From contig CM030852.1 of the NCBI GenBank assembly GCA_018105865.1, forward strand, positions 6,894,034-6,958,033: a stretch of DNA of 64,000 nucleotides, given 5' to 3'. This stretch comes from Metaphire vulgaris (Eukaryota; Annelida; Clitellata; Crassiclitellata; Megascolecidae). Within the stretch, counting starts at the first letter, position 1, and the number at the start of each line of letters is the position of its first letter. The translations under genes were made by a program, and so were the position numbers. The notes beneath the pieces are model-generated. The model worked only from the letters and a program-made list of their open reading frames with translations. It was not told the DNA's origin and made no database searches. Below, piece after piece: positions 31,482-51,970 of this stretch.

Positions 31482-31491
31482 ATGGCGACAG
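31482..31491 (+). CDS. DED-kinase exon 1 (start codon)
   Basis: ATGGCGACAG is followed by the consensus donor GTACGT. The phase-1 end joins exactly to the phase-1 acceptor at 31745 and gives MATGVAGIRL. An alternative start is the ATG within exon 2 at about 31770 (MFASS). Confidence 0.6.

Positions 31492-51970: not shown

Follow-up and report, generated by a model that had tools for sequence, protein, structure and literature searches.

The stretch of DNA analysed here (the window) comprises 64,000 nucleotides from the annelid Metaphire vulgaris. On its + strand, at 31482-51970, lies an intron-rich locus of animal type. With somewhat better than even confidence, the locus is read as one animal gene with 16 exons in the model, coding for a presumably cytoplasmic protein of about 800 residues in which a death effector domain (DED) is included by way of either a weak donor or a base miscount at the junction. 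The proposed protein would begin with a DED, followed by a linker and a Src/Abl-like pseudokinase (K1); a second linker, of about 70 residues, would lead to an intact Src/Abl-like tyrosine kinase (K2), and a short tail would close the chain. The exons are listed below, together with the evidence for them; P0001 is a public spliced protein of 608 aa, encoded by a 2101-base contig and obtained in the first homologue search.

31482..31491, + strand: proposed exon 1 (ATGGCGACAG) with the start codon; it ends in phase 1 and connects to 31746 so as to enter the DED frame (prediction)
31746..32101, + strand: exon 2, DED-coding; two possible ends, the strong donor gtgagg (phase 0) and a weak one after 32114 (phase 1)
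31844..32101, + strand: predicted death effector domain (Pfam PF01335, below the curated cut-off; cFLIP DED matches)
32388..32480, + strand: exon 3, linker; shares the frame of exon 4 but does not fit the strong donor of exon 2
33729..33812, + strand: exon 4, degenerate glycine loop of K1 (splice, codon and alignment analysis); outside P0001
35778..36043, + strand: exon 5, K1 N-lobe (Pfam); in P0001 from near the exon start onward
37756..37915, + strand: exon 6, K1 catalytic-loop region (P0001, alignment)
38810..38941, + strand: exon 7, K1, with SLD replacing APE (P0001, alignment)
39628..39811, + strand: exon 8, end of K1 (P0001); donor CGG/gtgatg, with an in-frame TGA at the intron start
40354..40442, + strand: exon 8b, inter-kinase linker (P0001 residues 247-276)
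41294..41392, + strand: exon 8c, inter-kinase linker (P0001)
41603..41716, + strand: exon 9, start of the predicted active kinase K2, GAGEFGEVW (P0001)
43942..44201, + strand: exon 10, K2 N-lobe with VAIK and the helix C Glu (Pfam, P0001, alignment)
44824..44977, + strand: exon 11, K2 HRDLAARN, DFG and activation-loop YY (P0001, alignment)
48769..48900, + strand: exon 12, K2 APE (Pfam, P0001, alignment)
50958..51141, + strand: exon 13, end of K2 (Pfam, P0001)
51913..51970, + strand: exon 14, C-terminal tail and stop (P0001 ends identically)
52256..52261, + strand: ATTAAA, a possible poly(A) signal, roughly 290 bases downstream of the stop

In the Pfam scan of kinase pieces, which left out exons 3, 4, 11 and 14, tyrosine-kinase matches were found in exons 5-8, 10, 12 and 13 and, weakly, in exon 9 (E=0.07). 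By splice-site scoring, the donor of exon 1 (CAG/gtacgt) reaches 5.5 and the acceptor at 31746 merely 0.9. Scans for tRNAs and Rfam families returned no match.

Several repeats lie in the introns of the gene. The intron after exon 11 holds two direct repeats of 300 bases (45764-46063 and 46366-46665), which are 100% identical and 602 bases apart and stem either from a duplication of very recent date or from an error in the assembly. Long simple repeats, almost perfect, are found at 50592-50919, (CTGA)82 with 99% matches, and at 46948-47060, (ATC)38 with 96% matches. Elsewhere in the window, an exon-like open frame on the - strand (9945-10394) matches Pfam ANF_receptor with E=9.2e-9 and is presumably akin to the N-terminal domain of an ionotropic glutamate receptor, and open frames at 59034-59532, also on the - strand, resemble by eye the end of a LINE reverse transcriptase, with no match in Pfam.

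A pseudokinase and a tyrosine kinase in one transcript

On comparing P0001 with the splice-joined translation of the window from exon 5 to the stop, it was found that 600 of 608 residues are identical, with 8 substitutions and no gaps, and that P0001 agrees with each of the 11 junctions between exons 5 and 14. Since these exons cover 16,193 bases in the window, the contig is taken to come from spliced RNA or, less likely, from a processed copy. Hence, the pseudokinase and the kinase are carried by one transcript, and the tandem pseudokinase-kinase is real and belongs to one gene. The 8 differing residues further point to variation at this locus, either inside one species or among closely related ones. 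An earlier note on this DNA had linked exons 3 to 14 by their phases; one reading frame through them is indeed possible, but the splice assumed from exon 8 to 41589 was wrong, as P0001 places exons 8b and 8c, both absent from that note, in between and the start of exon 9 at 41603. The end of the gene at 51970 agrees with the identical C-terminus of P0001.

The in-frame TGA right at the exon-8 donor and the parallel exon sets of K1 and K2 would fit two adjacent single-kinase genes. This arrangement is extremely improbable, because P0001 runs through both kinases via the two linker exons and so rules it out unless P0001 is itself chimeric. At its other end P0001 starts inside exon 5, downstream of exons 1-4, at a residue for which the window has Val. 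The contig has 274 bases outside the 608-aa frame, which fit the distance of about 290 bases from the stop to the ATTAAA at 52256; therefore, its 5' end is probably truncated and carries no information on the DED.

The two kinases were aligned with Src42A, LYN, FRK, ABL and JAK1. K1 differs from Src42A at 13 of the 18 positions checked, with the β3 Lys replaced by Glu, the helix C Glu by Gln, HRD by HCN, the catalytic Asn by Ser, DFG by GFC and APE by SLD, so that all five catalytic residues checked (β3 Lys, helix C Glu, HRD Asp, catalytic Asn and DFG Asp) are lost. K2, in contrast, equals Src42A at all 18 positions and has the glycine loop, APE and the activation-loop YY. By these residues K1 is a predicted pseudokinase and K2 a predicted, catalytically complete tyrosine kinase, in agreement with the earlier description of exons 4-8 as a kinase fold devoid of catalytic residues and of exons 9-13 as an intact tyrosine kinase. 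In the same alignment, the pseudokinase domain JH2 of a fish JAK1 (P0031) retains the β3 Lys, the Asn and the DFG Asp, which indicates that K1, lacking both the lysine and the DFG aspartate, has degenerated in its own way.

The death effector domain and its probable connection to the kinases

The open frame 31619-32161 matches the Pfam DED profile over 31844-32101 with E=1.1e-7, and the 110-aa piece encoded by 31772-32101 gives E=4.8e-8 at 33.6 bits. These E-values are significant, while the scores of 32.5-33.9 bits lie under the Pfam curated cut-off of 35.9, the piece with the best E falling 2.3 bits short. When the DED piece was searched against PDB sequences, five cFLIP sequences were returned at 3.6e-5 to 6.7e-4 and the next chain, an unrelated one, at 0.68; the cFLIP values sum the two DEDs of that protein, and when the stretches are taken singly the better one reaches an independent E of 0.098. 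Codon usage, scored after training on transcript-supported exons, is coding-like in all three 90-base pieces of the DED, whose scores are equalled by no more than 3% of the 31581 intronic 90-mers with an open frame, and not clearly coding-like in the part of exon 2 preceding the domain. Profile, cFLIP matches and codon usage together argue that the DED exon is real, as had been proposed for exon 2, and the profile match falls where the earlier note had placed it (31850-32100). No further DED was found in the window by tblastn with the exon-2 DED.

The domain may be compared with established DED proteins. The common point with FADD, caspase-8/10, cFLIP, PEA15 and DEDD is the profile match itself; none of these proteins is known to have a tyrosine kinase. 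The stretch FLCRDV is identical to part of a cFLIP DED, and by eye the helix-2 Phe of the hydrophobic patch is present. Of the charge triad E/D-RxDL, the helix-2 Glu and the Arg appear by eye to be kept and the Asp to be replaced by Asn, the motif reading RKNI. In the excerpted text of PMC4558505, reports disagree on the extent to which FLIP and FADD depend on the RxDL motif. The single-sequence AlphaFold model of the domain has a pLDDT of 62, and no death-fold entry occurs among the 50 listed of 80 fold matches; the predicted structure is thus uninformative, neither helping nor hurting the identification.

The title of the earlier note joined the DED to the kinases, but since it claimed phases for exons 3-14 only, that link was left uncovered. 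Both parts are present and their fusion is plausible; the join of exons 2 and 3 is unproven, the strong sites being out of frame. The strong exon-2 donor, ACG/gtgagg after 32101, scores 4.65, a value reached by 0.5% of the 3401 GTs in the window, and leaves phase 0. The exon-3 acceptor at 32388 scores 8.8, among the best 0.14% of 3696 window AGs, and requires phase 1. In the sequence as it stands, the strong donor of exon 2 and this acceptor are therefore out of frame with each other, and the two exon-3 acceptors that would fit the donor score -10.9 and -9.5. Only one of the four GTs in 32030-32165, ATC/gtgatc after 32114, gives an in-frame donor. It scores -3.6, a value reached by 36% of the 3401 window GTs, and lies below all 11 donors supported by P0001, which range from -1.5 to 8.2. 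The weights behind these scores are approximate frequencies. The donor of exon 3 scores 4.4, among the best 0.6% of window sites, and the codon score of this exon is mildly coding-like, with 11% of open intronic 90-mers as high.

The DED and the kinases probably form one protein. A common transcript is the likeliest reading because the DED exon lies 286 bases from exon 3 on the same strand and the strong exon-3 acceptor calls for an upstream exon, and the DED is the nearest recognised coding stretch upstream of exon 3. Translation of the DED within the kinase protein is what we infer from this arrangement. Homologue searches with the protein built on the weak-donor join revealed no relative linking a DED to the kinases, either among 993 candidates for a query of the 274-aa N-terminus or among 1070 candidates for the full protein with residues 1-175 targeted, searches that would miss much shorter DED-only fragments. 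Likewise, PF01335 was absent from the 120 listed of 437 homologues.

The clash of phases may instead reflect two products, namely a small protein with the DED alone, read from exons 1-2 and terminated either by the TGA at 32159 or out of frame within exon 3, and a tandem kinase whose start would be the in-frame ATG of exon 3 or a different first exon; these could be separate genes or alternative frames of one locus. Apart from that ATG, such a division would fit the DED frame staying open for 19 codons past the donor, to 32158, the AATAAA at 32080 within the DED exon, and the fact that P0001 gives no support for the DED link; gene models are known to merge neighbouring genes by mistake, according to the excerpts of PMC3927609. 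It is nevertheless unlikely, as no AATAAA or ATTAAA occurs between 32102 and exon 3, the exon-3 acceptor wants an upstream exon, and the read-through tail 32102-32158 has a non-coding-like codon score of -0.535.

It is also conceivable, though doubtful, that the DED was once fused and that the link is broken in the sequenced haplotype, or appears broken through a miscount in an adenine run. Adenine runs flank the junction of exons 2 and 3 on both sides, both splice sites are otherwise strong with a mismatch of a single frame step, and the locus is variable, as seen from the 8 of 608 residues at which P0001 differs. On the sequence at hand, however, this reading is indistinguishable from the weak-donor model, and the miscount case overlaps with the preferred fusion, so that the likelihoods given here do not sum to one.

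Origin of the kinase pair

Alignment of K1 with K2 over 260 positions gives 35% identity. Four of their five introns coincide in alignment column and phase; for the remaining one, the phase and the exon length (184) are equal. In a tree of 35 domains the two kinases are sisters (support 80/93, unstarred), apart from both JAK domains, and they were sisters again in a smaller quick tree (support 86, unstarred). AU tests rejected neither K1 with JH2 (p 0.218) nor K2 with JH1 (p 0.093), nor a clade with Src-type kinases (p 0.546); K1 and the JH2 domains are long branches. Among the best 60 listed PDB sequence matches of the two kinases, out of 2616 and 2094, the best are of Src type, save that 9p9u, a 678-residue chain labelled EGFR with two matched stretches, comes first in the lists of both kinases, above the Src-type entries. 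Of the entries with a name, those matching the protein or its kinases best are Src42A, FRK, LYN, LCK, FYN and HCK. Exons of 154 and 132 bases may also occur in Src-family genes, a point on which the argument for the origin does not draw.

Searched by tblastn, the window yielded no SH2, SH3 or FERM exon; JAK1 FERM-SH2 had no match at E<=1 and SH3-SH2 gave a single chance-level match (E=0.31, - strand). As a control, the kinase part of Src42A recovered 9 of the 10 kinase exons and missed exon 4, so that a very divergent or short exon of these types could escape.

From the intron positions, the trees and the sequence matches it was concluded that Src/Abl-like kinase exons were duplicated within the gene to give the kinase pair, after which the first copy would have lost catalysis. 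Given such a duplication, the JAK-like order of pseudokinase and kinase was most likely reached convergently. That the gene is a non-JAK tandem kinase, as suggested before, is upheld by the Src-type likeness, the shared introns, the sister relationship and the searches for SH2, SH3 and FERM exons, with JAK placement not formally rejected.

A JAK that had diverged, with FERM and SH2 lost and a DED acquired, would account for the pseudokinase ahead of the tyrosine kinase and for the AU results. It would also fit the structural comparison. The predicted model of P0001 shows two kinase folds (mean pLDDT 77) in an unreliable domain arrangement (pTM 0.53), and its fold matches are headed by JAK1 (7t6f, rank 1) and TYK2 (4oli, rank 2), the only pseudokinase-kinase entries among the 50 listed, the others being mostly single domains of Src or Abl type. 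These two matches, however, have rmsd values of 18 and 14 Å over both domains, and the sister placement of K1 and K2 apart from JH2 and JH1, the Src-type best matches and the shared introns, which point to a private duplication, all speak against JAK membership; it is disfavoured to the point of being very improbable, short of formal exclusion.

Comparison with known proteins and possible function

The protein may be compared with two groups of kinases. JAK1-3 and TYK2 also have a pseudokinase directly N-terminal to an active tyrosine kinase; their N-terminal part consists of FERM and SH2, for which no exon was found in the window, whereas K1 and K2 resemble Src/Abl and are mutual sisters with shared introns. 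With FRK, Abl and insect Src42A, K2 has HRDLAARN in common. Kinases of the Src/Abl/FRK type differ in having SH3-SH2, not found here, and the kinase here stands in tandem with a pseudokinase. Two motifs of the Src module, GxM in the β3-C loop and GxKF in the activation loop (PMC8662651, excerpts), are absent from K2, which reads TRTE and NLRL. GxKF is not universal, since Src42A, with GTM, reads DARF.

Lineage-specific fusions of death-fold domains (DED, DD, TRADD-N) are described as common in marine invertebrates in the excerpted texts of PMC8195603, PMC2575513 and PMC5094078. Examples are DED-NACHT in amphioxus (PMC2575513), kinase-DD-TIR in anemones (PMC5094078) and a S/T/Y kinase beside TRADD-N in a sponge (PMC8195603); none of the fusions in these excerpts combines a DED with a pseudokinase-tyrosine kinase pair. 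The DED-pseudokinase-tyrosine kinase layout is not mentioned in the excerpts of the papers on the holozoan tyrosine kinome and the oyster kinome (PMC8662651, PMC4883820), and no DED-tyrosine kinase protein was found among the titles and abstract openings listed for open-licence papers. The earlier statement that no family with this layout had been described agrees with this literature and with the listed homologues, both being weak evidence of absence. If fused, the DED-K1-K2 layout would provisionally be a new architecture made from known parts.

A mechanism may be proposed for such a protein. Its DED would recruit it into DED assemblies, as DEDs assemble with other DEDs (PMC4558505, excerpts). 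Clustering would then bring K2 domains together, leading to mutual phosphorylation on the activation-loop tyrosines, and K1 could either restrain K2 in the monomer or scaffold the assembly. The role of JH2, which restrains or scaffolds the kinase in JAKs, serves as the model for K1. Taken as a whole, this mechanism, each step of which we infer, is tentative and rather less likely than not.

The chances appear evenly balanced that the gene, by its architecture and separate origin, represents a new non-receptor tyrosine kinase family, in which the JAK plan was re-invented by a duplication of its own Src/Abl-like exons and a DED stands where the relatives have SH3-SH2. It would offer a natural test of the pseudokinase-kinase order as a general solution for controlling a tyrosine kinase, reached apart from the JAKs. 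It is possible, if rather unlikely, that a cell-death or immune filament, and not phosphotyrosine or a cytokine receptor, switches on tyrosine phosphorylation here. Should the DED be fused, it would connect death-fold assemblies directly with tyrosine phosphorylation. The reverse design has been made in the laboratory, where a DED fused to SH2 or PTB turns tyrosine-kinase signals into apoptosis (cited in the excerpts of PMC2575513).

Two of the other proteins compared also have two kinase domains, each with no DED match. P0002 carries EGF-like matches just under the Pfam cut-offs and, by eye, HRD in both kinases, and is probably a tandem tyrosine kinase of receptor type. P0016 has a RhoGEF and a tyrosine-kinase-like domain, and its second kinase appears degenerate by eye, so that the order of the active and degenerate domains is the reverse of that in K1-K2.
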